From: a virus
IMG/VR virus record: IMGVR_UViG_3300009147_000001
Location: 1-64,000 of that record
DNA: 64,000 nucleotides
Reading direction: 5' to 3' (one strand)
How positions within the stretch are numbered: position 1 is the stretch's first letter; the number at the start of each line of letters is the position of its first letter. Of the stretch, positions 28,315 to 51,467 are shown piece after piece. The notes beneath the pieces were generated by a model. It was not told where the DNA came from. It made no database searches and was given only the letters and a program-made list of their open reading frames with translations. The position numbers and the translations under genes are program-made.

Positions 28315-28603
28315 GCACGCTCGACGGTGTCCGCGTTGTGAATCCCCGGGTGTGGAAGGTGCTTCCCGCCCGGGGCCACATCGTAGCGTAATGCATACAT
28401 TCCACTGTCACAATGAGCGATGTCGTTGGTACACCACATCTTGGGTGGTACAAGTCAATGCAGATGGTAGTATTCCACCACCGGATGCATATCGACCTAA
28501 ACAATTTCCTGTACTACCAGATCAAACTGATGCAGTGAACGCACAAATGCAAAGACTCCTCCAAGACACCGCCAAGAAGGGCAGTGAGATTCGTGGGAGG
28601 TGA
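28298..28603 (+). CDS. zinc-ribbon protein upstream of helicase
   Basis: 101 residues from ATG 28298. CPRCESPGVE and CHNERCRWY give a four-ligand zinc ribbon of the TFIIS/RpoM type. Its stop overlaps the A of the helicase start (TGATG). Confidence 0.62.
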   Translation: MDTTFEHARRCPRCESPGVEGASRPGPHRSVMHTFHCHNERCRWYTTSWVVQVNADGSIPPPDAYRPKQFPVLPDQTDAVNAQMQRLLQDTAKKGSEIRGR

Positions 28604-30033
28604 TGCAAATGTCGTCCCTTAGTCTCTTTCCCTTTCAACGTGAGACTGTCGATAAGTTCCACAATGTACATAATGTTCTTATCGGGGACGACATGTAGCT
28701 GGGTTTAGGTAAAACTGCTCAGGCCATTGCACTTGACCAAACCAGGCGAAGTAATACAGGAGTCTATCATTGTCAAACCTTAGTGGTAACTCCACTGACT
28801 ATGGTAGATACGTGGGCGCGCGAGTATAATCAGTGGGCGCCGGACCTTCGGGTTATGGTAATTAACAACAAAAACCGACAACCATTCCTGGATGCCATTA
28901 CCAATCGCACCCATGATGTGTATATATGTCACTGGCCTGTTCTTCGACTCATGCCAGAACTATCTGAGCAAATGTGGTTCCATTTCATTGCTGACGAATG
29001 TCATGCACTGCAAAATAGAAAAGCAAAACAGACGCTTGCCGCGAAAAAGATTAAGGCTTACTACAAAACTGGACTTTCTGGCACACCAGCTTTTGACAAA
29101 CCTGACGATCTCTGGTCGATCCTCAATTGGCTGTATCCTAAGCATTGGTCCTCATACTGGCGATATTTCGACAGGCATGTATTATGGGTGGACTACAACG
29201 GATACAAACAAATCATTGGTATTGCGAATAAAGAAGAACTTCATAGTCAAATGTCTGGGTTCTATATTCGGCGGCGTAAGGAGCACGTGTTAAAAGAGCT
29301 ACCAGATAAGTACTACACCGACATTGAAGTGGATCTGAGCCCACAGCAGGCACGGGCCTATGAATCTATGCGTCGTGACATGATTGCTTGGGTGGGCGAA
29401 CACGAACATGAAGCAGTGGCCACCTCAGAAGTCATTGCTCAACTCGTCCGATTGCAGCAATTTGCATGCGCCTATGGCGAAATGGTGGAAACGAAGATAC
29501 GTAGTCGAGACACGGGCGAAGAGACGACTGTTCAAAAACTTAAACTCACCGAGCCGTCAACCAAGATCGATGCTGTTATTGAGATTATTCGCAACAATCC
29601 ACCCAACAAGCAATTTGTTATTTTCTCGCAGTTCTCCCAAGTTATCAAAATTCTAGAAAAACGACTGGCCGACGCAGGCATCAGTTACGGTATATACATT
29701 GGTGAAACTCCCGCAGACGAGCGTAGCCGCATCATTGATGACTTTCAAAATGGACTAATACAAATCTTTGCTAGTACAATCTCTGCCGGCGGCGTTGGCA
29801 TTACCCTGACCGCATCAGACACTGCAATATTCATTGATCGATCATGGTCGCCAAGTATTAATCGTCAAGCCGAAGATCGACTTCATAGAATAACCCAAAA
29901 GAACGCTGTTCATGTTATTGACATTCTGGCCAAGCAGACAATTGACGCTAAGCGTATTCAACAGATTTTGCAAAAATGGTCCTGGATTCGTCAGCTCATC
30001 GGTGATGACCGAGATAATTGGGTGGTTGATTAA
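28603..30033 (+). CDS. SNF2-family helicase interrupted by in-frame UAG in Walker A
   Basis: The frame opens at ATG 28603 (28609 also possible) and codes for LFPFQRETVDKF and LIGDDM, then TAG at 28696-28698, then LGLGKTAQAIAL and a full SNF2 helicase to 30033. Removing six bases (TAGCTG, 28696-28701) restores GDDMGLGKT, the exact SNF2 P-loop. Later motifs are intact: FIADECHALQN (DEAH-like box), GLSGTP, and C-terminal ASTISAGGVGITLT and INRQAEDRLHRITQ. So the body is conserved and under the same frame, but the P-loop carries a stop. Readthrough, ribosome bypass, a new loss-of-function mutation or a sequence error are all possible. The first downstream start (28783) would give a protein without Walker A. 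Confidence 0.85.
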
Positions 30034-31532: not shown

Positions 31533-33686
31533 ATGATGGACGTCCAGGACTATATTGACAAGAAATTGACGCATCAGATACATACGTCTGAACGACGGGC
31601 ATTTCGTAGCTGTCGACGTCGATGGGACTGGACGTATCGAGATATGTGGTATCCAAAAGTCACCCCTGAACCATTGGAGTTCGGGGTGGCTTTCCACAAA
31701 GCCATGGAATACATGTACGCGCCAGAGAACTGGCATGACAAGTTCACGGCCAAAAATCTCGCCATTGTGGCTTTTCGTCGCGAGACTGAGCGTCAGCTCA
31801 AGGACTTTATTAGACTAAACGGTGAGCCCGAGGCTGACGTGCTACAAAATCGCCGAGATCGCATCGAACTCGGCATCAACATGATCCGCTATTATGCCGA
31901 AGACGTGGCCTCCATAGAAGATCGGAACTTTACTCCATTAATGGTAGAAGTAGGATTTGAAGTTCCCATAGAAGACCATAACACTGGTGAGCAGCTCTGG
32001 TGTACGTGTAACCAATGTTATGCCAGGTTCGAATCGCAAAAAGTCGTTTCTAACATGTGGCGTGGACTACCAGTAACATATGGTGGTCGCATTGACATGA
32101 TAGCTAAAGACCAGATTGGGAGAGTATGGTGCTATGACTGGAAGACAACTTCCCGAATTCTTGATGAAGATGCGGAATCATCATTCTTACAGCTCGATGA
32201 TCAGATCACTTGTGTTCCAATGAACACTGAGGCATTGACTCCAACTGGATGGAAGAGAAGATCTGAACTAGAAGTAGGAGAACTCGTACTTGCATATGAT
32301 CAAAAATCAAAATCGAATAAATGGACGCCCATTCTTGCGTTCCACGATTTTGATAATGCAGAGCTATTTCAACTAAGTGACAAGACTAAATCATTCTGTG
32401 CAATTACTACTGCCAACCATAGGTGGATGGGGGAGAGACCATCGTCACATGGTAAATATGCAAAAATTATCGACTGGGAACCCGATACACAAAAGATAGA
32501 TGAATATAACAGTAAAGCCGCCATCTATGTTAGTGCCAACAGTGAAGTAGACGGATCACTTCCAATAACACCAGATGAGGCAGCACTAATCGCATGGATT
32601 ATTACCGATGGATCTCTCACCATAAGGGGAAATTCATACCAGGCTGCTATCGCTCAGGCAAATCATAAATATGCCAATGAAATACAAGCACTAATTGATA
32701 GAATAGGAATTAAGCACTCAGTGCGAGAGTATCCTGGATCGAACTTATCAAATAGACCGTACTTCAAGTGGTACCTCTCCCAGCCATACATTTCTGATCT
32801 GTGGGATCGAGCTGGTATCATGGGTAGACATGGCAACTTGGATGAATTCGTTCTAGGATTGTCAGCTAAGTCCAGAACAAGTTTTGTTGAAGCTGGAATG
32901 AAGGCAGAAGGATCACTTAGAAAAAACGGTAGTGGAACATTCTGTCAAAATGATGGTGAAGTAAAGGAAGCCTTTAGACTAGCAATGTTCCTGGAGGGTC
33001 GACGTCTAAGTATAGGAGGTCCCAAATACTTTGGGGTTCGCGTAGGTCGACCAGTCGCGGACGTGCGTACACTTAACACCACTAAAGTGGAGGGCAAACA
33101 TCGTGTATGGTGTATTTCCACCAAATATAACTCCTGGGTTATGCGTCAGGGTAAACAAATTACCATCACGGGCAACTCTTATTGCTGGGCTCTCTGGCAG
33201 CTTGGCTATGACATTGCTGGGTTTGTATATGTGGAAATTAAGAAAACGTACCCAAAGCCACCAGAACGACTCAGTCGACCATACAAAGGACGACTCTTCA
33301 GTACCAACAAACAACATCTGACTGATTACCGAAACTTTGTCGACACAGTGGCAGTTCAGGACGGACAAGGCTTCCAGACTGGACTCTACGACGAGTACAT
33401 TGATTGGCTCAAAACCGAAGGGCCACGCTTTACTCAACGCCATGAGATTGCGCGCAATCATCATGAGCTAGTAAATGCTGGTCGTAACATCGCCCTAGAG
33501 GCCATGGATATGACGCAAAACCCCCGGATCTACCCACAGCCAGGGCGGTTTTCGTGTCCAACCTGCCTGTTCCGACAGCCATGTCTAGGAATGAACATGA
33601 ATGAGGATGTCCAATATCTACTGGATACCTTGTTTGAGAAGCGAACACATCACTACTGGGAGGACAAACCAGTAAGCACTGATTAG
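31533..33686 (+). CDS. Cas4/RecB-like PD-(D/E)XK nuclease containing an intein
   Basis: 717 residues before splicing, about 395 after. Extein: N-terminal Cys in RRAFRSCRRRW, GGRIDMI and CYDWKTTS (nuclease motifs II and III), the QITSY motif, and a C-terminal FSCPTCLFRQPC cluster, giving the four Cys of a Cas4/AddB-type iron-sulfur site. The intein (residues 227-548) sits inside the Q-x-x-x-Y motif, so activity depends on splicing. The enzyme probably trims DNA ends in recombination together with the ATPase at 34489. Confidence 0.88.
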   Translation: MMDVQDYIDKKLTHQIHTSERRAFRSCRRRWDWTYRDMWYPKVTPEPLEFGVAFHKAMEYMYAPENWHDKFTAKNLAIVAFRRETERQLKDFIRLNGEPEADVLQNRRDRIELGINMIRYYAEDVASIEDRNFTPLMVEVGFEVPIEDHNTGEQLWCTCNQCYARFESQKVVSNMWRGLPVTYGGRIDMIAKDQIGRVWCYDWKTTSRILDEDAESSFLQLDDQITCVPMNTEALTPTGWKRRSELEVGELVLAYDQKSKSNKWTPILAFHDFDNAELFQLSDKTKSFCAITTANHRWMGERPSSHGKYAKIIDWEPDTQKIDEYNSKAAIYVSANSEVDGSLPITPDEAALIAWIITDGSLTIRGNSYQAAIAQANHKYANEIQALIDRIGIKHSVREYPGSNLSNRPYFKWYLSQPYISDLWDRAGIMGRHGNLDEFVLGLSAKSRTSFVEAGMKAEGSLRKNGSGTFCQNDGEVKEAFRLAMFLEGRRLSIGGPKYFGVRVGRPVADVRTLNTTKVEGKHRVWCISTKYNSWVMRQGKQITITGNSYCWALWQLGYDIAGFVYVEIKKTYPKPPERLSRPYKGRLFSTNKQHLTDYRNFVDTVAVQDGQGFQTGLYDEYIDWLKTEGPRFTQRHEIARNHHELVNAGRNIALEAMDMTQNPRIYPQPGRFSCPTCLFRQPCLGMNMNEDVQYLLDTLFEKRTHHYWEDKPVSTD
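32211..33176 (+). other. intein 1 (322 residues, LAGLIDADG type)
   Basis: Starts with Cys (CVPMNTEALTPTGW), has block B ITTANHRW, an endonuclease helix LIAWIITDGSL and a second SFVEAGMKAEGS, and ends ITITGN before Ser+1. Terminal residues C1, N(last) and S+1 are the standard splicing set, although the penultimate residue is Gly and not His. Confidence 0.9.
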
Positions 33687-34344: not shown

Positions 34345-34488
34345 CACTCATAGATACATCTCGATCAATTAGAGCAGTTGCGCTGGGCAGACAGCGATGC
34401 TAGACTGAAGTTCACTTCCCTTTCACAACCAAGTTTGGTTATTATTCGAATAAAAATTCGGACAAATTGGTACAAAGAGGGTGAATCA

Positions 34489-36141
34489 TTGTCGATAACG
34501 AGCATTGCTGGTCTGCCCATTCGCAAAGTAACCGAAGTACCGCCACATTTTAATATGTTGGTGTATGGTGAGAGTGGTGCAGGAAAAACCCGATTAGCAG
34601 GCTCCTGTGACGCCATCCCAGAGATGCGCCGAGTCCTGTTCATAGACATTGAGGGTGGCACACTAACACTTCGGAATACCTTTCCCAATGTCGAGGTTGT
34701 CCGAGTCCGCAATTGGCAAGAAATGCAATCCGTATACAATGAACTCCATGCTGGACAACATGACTATACTACAGTAGTCGTAGACAGTTTAACAGAATGC
34801 CAGAAATTATGCTATTCTTCCGATACTGAGGTACTAACTCCAAGTGGTTGGAAGTTAATACCAGATCTAGCAGAAAATGTCGATCTTATTGCCCAATACG
34901 AAATGGGCACCGAGTTAATATCCTTTGCTCAACCGTCGCTGATAATGAATTATCACCATCATGGTAGTATGGTAAACATCGCATCCAAGTCGTCTGCACT
35001 ACTTGTTACTCCTAATCATAGAGTACTTACTAAGACTCCCGCTGGGTCGATTGAAGTTCGAAAGGCTGAAGACCTTCGATCAAAACTGTTACTGCCAACC
35101 GCTGGTACACTACTTTCTATTGGTGGTCCTACCCCCGAACAGGGTAGACTATTAGTTGCTTGGGCTGCTGATGGACACCGTAATTTTAATGGTATGAAGT
35201 TCCACTTGAAGAAACAAGAAAAAATCGACCGTGTTAAGAAACTTATCATCGACTGTGGATTAACATACGAGGAGCCTGACTGGAAAGACGATGGAACTTA
35301 CATAATTGTGAGAAATGCTCAGTCAGTGACAAAATTCATGCCTGACCGCATGTGGCACATTGAATCCATGATGTGGTCATTGCAGACACGTGACGCTATC
35401 ATGTCGGAAATGCCTCTCTGGGACAGTACACCACAACCATCAGGATCTGGCTCATTCAGTTATAGAACTAAATATAAATCAAATGCAGACGCAATTTCTG
35501 CTCTCGCTGCTCTTACTGGATGGAGTGTCAATATTGCAATTGACACTACAAGAACTACTATTTACCGACTTAACTTAATTCGCACTTCATGGAGAACACA
35601 ATCAGTTATTGAAAACGTAGATTACAATGACAGCGTATGGTGTGTCTCTGTACCTTCAGGATTCATTGTCACTCGCCGTCAAGGTAAAATTACAATCTGT
35701 GGTAACTCTATGGACCGTATAATGCGTAAACTCGTAGAAGAATACGAGGAACGTGATGCAGACGTTCCAGGCATTCGGGAATGGAACATCAATATAGAGC
35801 AAACACGCAAATTCGTTCGAGCCTTTCGTGACTTGCCCGTAAATACGATCTTTACTGCTTTAGTTAAAATGGACAAAAATAATCGGACTGGAGCCATAAA
35901 GCGTAAACCATCGTTAAGCGGCAAAGTAGCCGACGAAGTTGCCGGTTTCCTTGACATTGTTACATATCTATATACCAAGGAGGTTGAAGGAGAATACAGA
36001 CGTATACTGTTATCCGGAGCCACTGAAGACACGGTAGCCAAAGATCGCACCGGATTGCTACCAATGTTGATTGAGTCACCTACCATGGTTGAGATCTGGA
36101 ATGCAGTCAAGGAGATAAAGACGGATGGCCAGTCCGCTTAA
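34489..36141 (+). CDS. RecA/Sak4-like ATPase containing an intein
   Basis: 550 residues from TTG 34489 (AGAGGGTG upstream); about 251 after splicing. Walker A is VYGESGAGKTRLA and Walker B is TVVVDSLTE, as in phage Sak4/RecA-like single-strand annealing or recombination ATPases. The intein is inserted ten residues after the Walker B aspartate region, between ECQKL and SMDRIM. It overlaps the ssDNA-binding protein gene by 17 bases, the usual neighbour of this ATPase. Confidence 0.85.
   Translation: MSITSIAGLPIRKVTEVPPHFNMLVYGESGAGKTRLAGSCDAIPEMRRVLFIDIEGGTLTLRNTFPNVEVVRVRNWQEMQSVYNELHAGQHDYTTVVVDSLTECQKLCYSSDTEVLTPSGWKLIPDLAENVDLIAQYEMGTELISFAQPSLIMNYHHHGSMVNIASKSSALLVTPNHRVLTKTPAGSIEVRKAEDLRSKLLLPTAGTLLSIGGPTPEQGRLLVAWAADGHRNFNGMKFHLKKQEKIDRVKKLIIDCGLTYEEPDWKDDGTYIIVRNAQSVTKFMPDRMWHIESMMWSLQTRDAIMSEMPLWDSTPQPSGSGSFSYRTKYKSNADAISALAALTGWSVNIAIDTTRTTIYRLNLIRTSWRTQSVIENVDYNDSVWCVSVPSGFIVTRRQGKITICGNSMDRIMRKLVEEYEERDADVPGIREWNINIEQTRKFVRAFRDLPVNTIFTALVKMDKNNRTGAIKRKPSLSGKVADEVAGFLDIVTYLYTKEVEGEYRRILLSGATEDTVAKDRTGLLPMLIESPTMVEIWNAVKEIKTDGQSA
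34810..35706 (+). other. intein 2 (299 residues)
   Basis: Starts CYSSDTEVLTPSGWK, has block B LLVTPNHRVL, a degenerate endonuclease helix LLVAWAADGH and ends GKITICGN before Ser+1. Its ends resemble intein 1 (EALTPTGWK, KQITITGN), so the two are related. The endonuclease part looks decayed. Confidence 0.88.
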
Positions 36142-42604: not shown

Positions 42605-42821
42605 GGTCACTGTCATTATGGAGGCTCGGGGCACTACCATCACCATCGAAGAAGAGGACACTCAACCAACGAGCACTGCCGGTGATGTGCGAAAACTACC
42701 AGTGCTGTTAGCCCAAGCGGCCGGTCGAGGCGCAGGACTGCTAGAAAATGAAATTAAACAGACCATTGCAGCGGGAGTGGCGCAACTTGCCACAATGGTC
42801 GACATATTGAAGAAGGAATAA
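42597..42821 (+). CDS. small helical protein
   Basis: 74 residues; beta start (KVTVIMEARGTTITIEEED) and a C-terminal helix. No family recognised. Confidence 0.58.
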   Translation: MAKVTVIMEARGTTITIEEEDTQPTSTAGDVRKLPVLLAQAAGRGAGLLENEIKQTIAAGVAQLATMVDILKKE

Positions 42822-43483
42822 TGCACATTATACTGTCTGGCGTGGTAGGTTCGCGTGCATATGGTCTAGATAACGAACAATCTGATACTGACCGTCTTGC
42901 CATCTTTGCTGTCAACACCAACGATCTGTTTGGACTAAAACCAATAAAAGAAACTATGGTGTCTACTGCCCCAGATATCACCTCACATGAGATCCGTAAG
43001 TATTGTCGACTAGCGATCAATGGCAACCCTAGTGTACTCGAATTAATGTACCTACCTCAATATGAAGTGAAAACAAGTTTTGGTCAAGAACTCATTGCCA
43101 TTCGCAGCAGCTTTTTGTCCCAGAAGGCTGTCAAAAACGCTTATCTTGGCTATGCCGCACAACAATTTCGAAGAATAGAAACTCGTGGCGATTATTCCTT
43201 TAGTTCAGACCTGCGCGGACGTACAGCTAAACATGCGCGACATCTGGCTCGGCTCGTCACCCAAGGGCTAGAACTGTATACTACTGGTACAATGACATTA
43301 TATCTGGAGAATCCACAATGGTATTTTGCTTTTGGCGAACGTGTCGCTAATGGAGACTTGGAGCATGCCCGGACCTTCCTCACCGACATGGACCATAAAT
43401 TCACCAACTCATCACTACCGCTGACTCCAGACCTTCCGACCATAGAACACTGGATGGAACGAGTGAGACGTGCGTACCTATAG
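42821..43483 (+). CDS. predicted nucleotidyltransferase
   Basis: 220 residues. GSRAYGL with SDTDR gives the GS...D-x-D signature of minimal nucleotidyltransferases (pol-beta superfamily, YcgL-like group), followed by an all-helical C-terminal half. Substrate unknown; related phage proteins may modify RNA or protein. Confidence 0.8.
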   Translation: MHIILSGVVGSRAYGLDNEQSDTDRLAIFAVNTNDLFGLKPIKETMVSTAPDITSHEIRKYCRLAINGNPSVLELMYLPQYEVKTSFGQELIAIRSSFLSQKAVKNAYLGYAAQQFRRIETRGDYSFSSDLRGRTAKHARHLARLVTQGLELYTTGTMTLYLENPQWYFAFGERVANGDLEHARTFLTDMDHKFTNSSLPLTPDLPTIEHWMERVRRAYL

Positions 43484-50955: not shown

Positions 50956-50999
50956 TCAGAGCTTAAAGATGCGATTTACACCATTATCCCAGGTCACCA
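50956..50999 (-). other. displaced C-terminal codons of the adhesin gene
   Basis: In a frame just past the homing-endonuclease stop the sequence codes IMVTWDNGVNRIFKL and a stop. This copies the C-terminus of the gene at 51464-52327 (IVVTFDNGPNKIFKL). It is the likely original 3' end, cut off by the inserted gene. Confidence 0.7.
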
Positions 51000-51467
51000 T
51001 GATACGTCGGCTGCCGTTTTGCCAACTCGATATGCTCTGGCCCGTGCATTTATACATTCCTTGCATCGCCTCCTTTCCTCCCTGATTACTAGATTGTTTC
51101 CAACTAATAGGTGACCGTGCTGACATGTTGGTGAGGTTCCGCGCTTCGGTGCCAATGCCTTCCATTTATCCAACACTTCTTCGGCCTTTAGTTTTCTGCG
51201 CTCACATAGATGTGGCAATATTAGTTCTATAAATTTTCCCGCATCTTCTCTGGCATAGATGGCCCAACGCCATACCCGCTTACCAGTAATAGTGCGCTCA
51301 TTTGCCTCAGATACAACACCAACACCGGACCATTCTAGCATTCTATATATGACATCCATGTCAGTAGATGCAACCTGAATTTTTGGTCTTCCTCCTTTGT
51401 CACTACCAATCCAGCCTTCACCCTCAATTATTCCAATAATCCAACCAAGTTTCAACTCTTCAATCAT
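50994..51467 (-). CDS. LAGLIDADG homing endonuclease
   Basis: 157 residues. LGWIIGIIEGEGWIG is a clean LAGLIDADG helix with its acidic residue, followed by the usual beta-strand pair and a second helix; the C-terminal HGHLLVGNNLVIREERRRC and CKEC look like an added zinc-binding DNA-recognition module. Its ATG overlaps the stop of the adhesin gene by four bases. One LAGLIDADG motif implies a dimer. Confidence 0.85.
   Translation of the reverse strand: MIEELKLGWIIGIIEGEGWIGSDKGGRPKIQVASTDMDVIYRMLEWSGVGVVSEANERTITGKRVWRWAIYAREDAGKFIELILPHLCERRKLKAEEVLDKWKALAPKRGTSPTCQHGHLLVGNNLVIREERRRCKECINARARAYRVGKTAADVSW

Follow-up and report, generated by a model that had tools for sequence, protein, structure and literature searches.

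Candidate programmed stop-hopping at the Walker A motif of SNF2-type helicases in phages and prophages

Gene 60 of phage T4 is so far essentially the sole proven case of efficient bypassing in phages and bacteria. It carries a stop codon next to the take-off codon and matched take-off and landing codons, and the motor that draws the mRNA along is believed to be a 5' stem-loop whose folding is completed once codon and anticodon have parted (PMC5009743, PMC11194080). In the synthetic stop-hops of Weiss et al. (1987), as cited in PMC5009743, a codon, a stop codon and a matched codon, nine bases in all, yield one amino acid. The review by Atkins et al. (2016) describes stop-hops in synthetic constructs, with natural in-frame occurrences presumed but unknown, and UUA has been implicated in the proposed bypass of the terminase of Streptomyces phage Hau3 (PMC5009743). 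A literature search covering openly licensed papers found no natural helicase bypass, so priority stays unproven.

We analysed a window of 64,000 nucleotides that covers bases 1-64000 of a virus record 110,163 bases long. An SNF2 helicase frame at 28603-30033 (+) reads ...VLIGDDM*LGLGKT..., with TAG at 28696-28698 within the Walker A motif. The initial annotation had described an in-frame UAG at this place, and the frame reading and the Pfam matches (SNF2-rel_dom PF00176, 3.7e-40; Helicase_C PF00271, 2.9e-16) agree with it. Removal of TAGCTG gives the consensus GDDMGLGKT, as had been pointed out, and the two-codon insert is absent at Walker A in five phage homologues (30-36% identity). The frame is otherwise open over 443 codons, and the 110,163-base record holds a single copy of the helicase. 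Together with dN/dS values of 0.04-0.22 among interrupted genes, the open frame bears out the earlier claim that the rest of the helicase is intact and not generally decaying. The start of the frame at 28603 had to be revised, since relatives place the start codon at 28609, where ATGTCGTCC follows the Shine-Dalgarno sequence GGGAGGTGAT (28595-28604, +); GGAGGTGATG is kept before ATGTCGTC in the related loci L016 and L021. ORF1 (28609-28698, +) comprises 29 codons, MSSLSLFPFQRETVDKFHNVHNVLIGDDM, up to the UAG, and its start is common to L016, L021 and L042. ORF2 (28702-30033, +), recognized by Pfam and by comparison with homologues, begins with GLGKT and encodes the remaining SNF2 helicase. We conclude that the in-frame UAG is genuine and results from neither error nor decay. 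No near-identical relatives of the window phage were visible via the helicase or the polymerase. A coding-signal scan of the record for further in-frame stops gave four matches, all of them ordinary gene boundaries, and missed even the helicase site.

We propose that the window helicase is made by programmed short-range ribosome bypassing, a "stop-hop" from AUG over UAG to CUG, and we put the probability of this reading at roughly 0.8. The ribosome would start at 28609, read 29 codons and stall with peptidyl-tRNA(Met) on the AUG at 28693-28695 and UAG in the A site. Upon release of the anticodon, a helix between 28609-28619 and 28684-28694 would zip behind the ribosome and draw the mRNA back, the tRNA would re-pair on the CUG at 28699-28701, and decoding would resume at the GGU at 28702-28704, giving exactly GDDMGLGKT. 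The putative take-off AUG, the last codon of ORF1 and the Met of DDM, has the same position in L016, L021, L042 and L072. The UAG, which is the entire coding gap between the take-off and landing codons (3 nt, without a stem, for a skip of 6 nt), is kept in L016, and the putative landing CUG, which would stay undecoded, is kept in L016 and L021. AUG and CUG match imperfectly, at two of three bases, and CUG would be near-cognate for the P-site tRNA-Met; tRNA-Met tolerates CUG as a P-site partner in initiation. T4 gene 60 also has a nascent-peptide signal (KKYK) in the exit tunnel; in the window, with take-off at codon 29, the whole nascent peptide would lie within the tunnel. A hop of six nucleotides from AUG to CUG had been suggested in the initial annotation, and sequence comparison favors it over the alternatives: from the conserved interruption and its site, selection on the downstream frame, and a helix with covariation in the related set, we infer the hop, a probable motor role for the helix and a probable landing on CUG.

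A degenerate scan of IMG/VR with D-[DE]-M-stop-x-G-x-G-K gave one other contig, L016, which has TAGCTG between DDM and GLGKT as in the window. L016 is a different phage, with 50% amino acid identity and 52% overall nucleotide identity in the helicase gene, and with the same gene order (SNF2 helicase, Cas4-like exonuclease, RecA-like protein). In both phages TAGCTG sits within an 18-base identity, GGACGACATGTAGCTGGG. Fourfold-degenerate sites are identical at 11 of 65 positions (17%) and are thus randomised; at this rate, identity at all six insert bases would arise by chance with p ~2e-5, indicating that the insert is conserved beyond chance. Searching with an alignment of the window and L016 helicases produced 17 loci, and Walker A was readable in 15 of them (39-63% identity). 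Twelve of these 15 lack any insert, motif variants aside, one is L016 again (as L026), and L021 (60% identical) contains a 7-nt insert, AGACCTG, at exactly the same place. The comparison with relatives that had been proposed earlier found the same TAGCTG in L016 and similar inserts elsewhere.

Unbiased scans of viral contigs, in which D[DE]M and G[LF]GKT could be separated by 1-20 (or 1-30) bases, recovered only inserts of 5-9 nt in SNF2 genes, though up to 20-30 nt were permitted. The inserts were TTACCTCG in L041 and L042 (one phage in two samples, identical), TTATC in L072, GGCTAA in L040, GGCTAAATA in L061 and L078, GGTTGACCA in L066 and GGCTGACC in L084. Every in-frame insert holds an in-frame stop, and the 5-, 7- and 8-nt inserts shift the frame. 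L040, L061, L078, L066 and L084 share the arrangement ATG-GGY-stop-n-GGY, that is, a Gly codon, a stop, 0-3 bases and a second Gly codon. A scan for this class B (MG^LGKT) with ATGGGN-TRR-N{0,15}-G[LF]GKT, filtered by SNF2 homology, raised the count to 32 distinct sites, including prophages of isolate genomes. A third class, C (MGLG^KT), in which the break follows the second Gly, was reached through tblastn against INPHARED phages and occurs in the isolates phiPaco, Pd_22F, phi1605, NatCom_38182 and Javan422. Four more class C sites, for a total of nine, were found in 399 bacterial genomes of one phylum, where a reversed control pattern had no matches and class B sites were absent. The TAGCTG site was not found in bacterial genomes, and a broad bacterial scan gave, among the matches listed, just chance overlaps with the pattern, for example ATGGGG within SNF2 genes. 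False matches with an upstream ATG out of frame (L079, L105, L131, L269, L270, L272, L291, L314 and others) were removed.

In total, 46 distinct phage or prophage SNF2-type helicases contain a short insert at Walker A, five of them window-like and 41 of class B or C. At the 41 class B/C sites the take-off codon is GGU (31) or GGC (10) with the stop directly after it, and the stops are UGA (16), UAA (13) and UAG (12); these frequencies are partly imposed by the class B pattern, which demanded T-purine-purine after ATGGGN, and the unbiased scans (four independent class B sites) and the isolates are free of this bias. The skip needed at these sites is 4, 5, 6, 7, 8 or 9 nt. A GGN landing codon is present at 38 of the 41, the exceptions being the class C sites L364, L373 and L372, where the take-off codon is mismatched with the landing codons AGA, AGC and GAC. 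Among the window-type sites, the codon next to AUG is not a stop in L021, L042 and L072; UUA follows AUG in L042 and L072, and the landing codons are CUG in L021, AUC in L072 and UCG, a poor match, in L042. The GenBank entries of phiPaco, Pd_22F, phi1605 and NatCom_38182 (L364-L367) annotate either a short ORF together with a helicase truncated at its N-terminus or the truncated helicase alone, which is likely a systematic misannotation. In L061 (9605-11983, -), ~230 residues follow motif Ia that are absent in the close relative L078, with no Pfam domain there.

Selection on the interrupted genes was examined by dN/dS downstream of the stop. The closest pairs of the MIFKPH type gave 0.06 (L320/L324), 0.04 (L281/L343) and 0.04 (L275/L281), and L061/L078 gave 0.22, or 0.13 over the last 469 codons. 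Between L281 and L343, the stop has been swapped (UAA versus UGA) at a dS of 0.52, yet a stop is kept in both. Because the landing codons of L364, L373 and L372 do not encode Gly, the invariant Gly of GKT must come from the take-off codon, with decoding resumed exactly at Lys; the take-off Gly is kept, and a codon for Ser, Arg or Asp may come to stand at the landing position, which would not be decoded. These genes would each encode one protein in two ORFs that are split by undecoded nucleotides and kept by selection, which is the general mark of bypassing.

In the predicted fold of 28606-28725, AUGUCGUCCCU (28609-28619, +), from the start codon into codons 2-4, pairs with GGGGACGACAU (28684-28694, +), whose end lies within the take-off AUG. 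The predicted 11-bp helix has an MFE of -37.1 kcal/mol (z -4.2), and the equivalent fold of L016 has a z of -5.1. The 5' arm encodes an extra N-terminal "MSS"; intact relatives begin with MQLYPFQ... or similar, without it, and have no such helix. In L021, UCACC/GGUGA takes the place of the UCCC/GGGGA of the window. The best helix score reaching the take-off codon was 10.5, 9, 11, 10.5 and 7 in the five interrupted window-type genes and 3-5.5 in 11 intact relatives. The same architecture was seen in class B, with 12 bp in L264 and 10-12 bp in L040 and L084, and in the MIFKPH group codons 2-4 pair with the L-D-M codons. The expected number of paired nucleotides among the last 12 through the take-off codon was 8.65 (A, the window-type genes), 8.98 (B) and 6.4 (C), whereas intact genes gave 3.28 and 3.78; in the Mann-Whitney test the three classes reached p = 0.0023, 9e-5 and 0.023, respectively, and the helix is weak in class C. 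In 19 equal-length class B genes the hairpin was paired in 80.7% of cells, versus 27-50% for slid controls, and 19 double-changed cells were counted against 8.6 in shuffles (0 of 500 shuffles as high), a covariation test that leans in favor of the hairpin, whose structure was read from the same 19 sequences. Recoding with synonymous codons supported the helix significantly in the window (p=0.027) and L016 (p=0.043) and not significantly in L021, L042 and L072, for which the test kept part of the 5' arm fixed. RNAalifold reported no consensus structure. These results suggest that a covarying helix, absent in intact relatives, would form upstream of the take-off codon in the manner of the gene 60 5' stem-loop. 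The intact helicase of Bacteroides phage BK687P1 (L369) has an 11-bp helix, CAUAUCAAGGA/UCCUUGAUAUG, that ends at the DM codons and is perhaps a trace of recent insert loss.

We next consider the origin of the interruption. On the tree of the window subfamily, interrupted and intact genes are interleaved, with five changes, at least three of them forced by well-supported branches, indicating that the element was repeatedly gained or lost. Homing endonucleases, which commonly target the P-loop, are a plausible source, given that inteins occur in the next two genes of the window and that the L072 helicase carries a Hint domain; alteration of the target site, guarding against homing endonucleases, would be the likely origin of the insert. 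In the mobA/gene 60 model of such a resistance cassette, the insert abolishes the cut site of an endonuclease whose gene lies close by. The first of the two neighboring genes, a PDDEXK exonuclease gene (31533-33686, +), has an in-frame intein-like insertion with a LAGLIDADG_3 match, and the second, a RecA/AAA_24-like gene (34378-36141, +), has one with a weak intein N-terminal match; the L016 counterparts of both are shorter and lack the insertions. A free-standing LAGLIDADG_3 endonuclease gene lies amid structural genes at 50994-51467 (-). In the SNF2 helicase of L027, at ~6001, motif II carries what looks like the C-terminus of an intein (GILVHN^CHGLQNRK), which marks another insertion hot spot of this gene family. 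A remnant of an intein or a group I intron at the Walker A site was rejected by reasoning, as the boundaries do not fit (no Cys, Ser or Thr after the site; no U...G ends).

The same surroundings could be read as those of a scar, for example of an imprecisely joined homing-endonuclease cut in the P-loop, in a helicase that is broken and dispensable. The P-loop as a typical homing target, the inteins in the next two genes and in other helicase copies (L072, L027), the varied insert sequences and the interleaving on the tree all agree with a scar. It would leave unexplained the low downstream dN/dS, the conservation of all six insert bases between the window and L016, the retention of a stop whose identity changes, the matched Gly codons and a helix that is specific to interrupted genes, and we regard it as unlikely.

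A quite improbable alternative is readthrough, in which a suppressor or near-cognate tRNA would decode UAG and the P-loop would gain two residues. The window insert of 6 nt keeps the frame, and the phage has tRNA-Gln(CUG), tRNA-Gln(UUG) and tRNA-Tyr. However, two extra residues would fall inside Walker A, and the insert length is not a multiple of three at 23 of the 46 sites; over the whole set all frames occur and all three stops are used, which favors a hop over readthrough. Readthrough is out of frame at these 23 sites, and shifts of +1, -1 or +2 would add 1-3 residues to the P-loop, so that a skip alone would restore the consensus everywhere. UAG is also a normal stop in the window phage, terminating 24 of its 105 ORFs of at least 100 amino acids, and none of the 29 tRNAs encoded in the 110-kb record has a CTA anticodon, making a changed code or a suppressor tRNA unlikely; both were rejected as the cause, none having been detected in the record. 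Also among these 29 tRNA genes is a tRNA-Met(CAT) (L009 1019-1093; record 102019-102093, outside the window) with a GGG/CCC anticodon stem and an apparently unpaired first base, which seems to be the phage's own initiator tRNA. The window further contains, at 42821-43483 (+), a gene for an RlaP-like RNA-repair nucleotidyltransferase (Pfam 1.5e-22).

If translation ended at UAG and began anew at the neighboring CUG, a second protein starting fMet-GLGKT would result. CUG is a weak start codon, here directly after the stop, and CTG stands there in L016 and L021 too, but class B/C genes have no start-like codon at that place and the product would miss the first strand of the ATPase fold, so that reinitiation is highly improbable. 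A sequencing or assembly error, conceivable for a window from a single metagenomic contig, or a six-base excision from the RNA has a negligible chance, given the same or similar inserts in independent contigs and sequenced isolates, the identity of L041 and L042 across two samples, and the lack of any known RNA process that takes out 4-9 nt in this way.

The stop-hop reading has wider implications. It is likely, on the comparisons above, that short-range stop-hopping is natural and widespread among the SNF2-type helicases that phages and prophages of several bacterial groups encode, that it is driven by a hairpin from start codon to take-off codon, and that it has been repeatedly gained and lost at Walker A, probably hiding a homing-endonuclease target. 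Given dozens of sites that are short and simple and have a helix upstream, the hop would become testable by comparison and with small reporters. These sites would also correct a recurrent misannotation, in which a 29-31-aa ORF precedes an N-truncated, seemingly dead helicase; an in-frame stop does not by itself prove that a phage gene is decaying.

Several known systems share features with the helicase sites. In the +1 frameshift of prfB (CUU UGA), likewise, the P-site tRNA slips while a stop codon occupies the A site, but the shift is +1 only, and a shift of +1, +2 or -1 in the helicase would put residues into Walker A. The proposed Hau3 terminase bypass and the Magnusiomyces mitochondrial byp elements resemble the helicase sites in the short bypass, in UUA in the A site (L042 and L072), in allowing an imperfect codon match and in the many sites. 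They differ in that other genes are concerned and the mitochondrial cases have longer gaps and lack mRNA context, whereas the helicase sites have a stop and a 5' helix. Relative to the synthetic stop-hops as cited, L040 (GGC UAA GGC), L304 (GGC UGA GGC) and L303 (GGU UAA GGU) would be exact natural instances, and the window, with AUG UAG CUG giving M, a near match; unlike those constructs, the helicase sites are natural and conserved and have an upstream helix.

T4 gene 60 had been named as the precedent in the initial annotation, and the window has both a stop adjoining the take-off codon and a predicted 5' stem-loop. As in gene 60, the gap lies inside a conserved catalytic protein, take-off is ~30-45 codons from the start, and an upstream stem-loop could pull the mRNA. 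The stop is directly 3' of the take-off codon in the window and in all class B/C sites (partly imposed by the search pattern), and not in L021, L042 and L072. Class B/C sites would also share take-off and landing by tRNA-Gly (GGY to GGN in 38 of 41), and the origin of gene 60 bypassing, too, is linked to homing endonucleases, a link that for the helicase sites is a proposal. In contrast, gene 60 has a 50-nt gap with a take-off stem-loop in the gap, whereas the helicase sites would skip 4-9 nt with no stem in the gap, and the window would use AUG to CUG. Unlike the gene 60 stem-loop, the helicase helix extends from the start codon right into the take-off codon, and, unlike gene 60, the helicase sites are widespread in unrelated phages.
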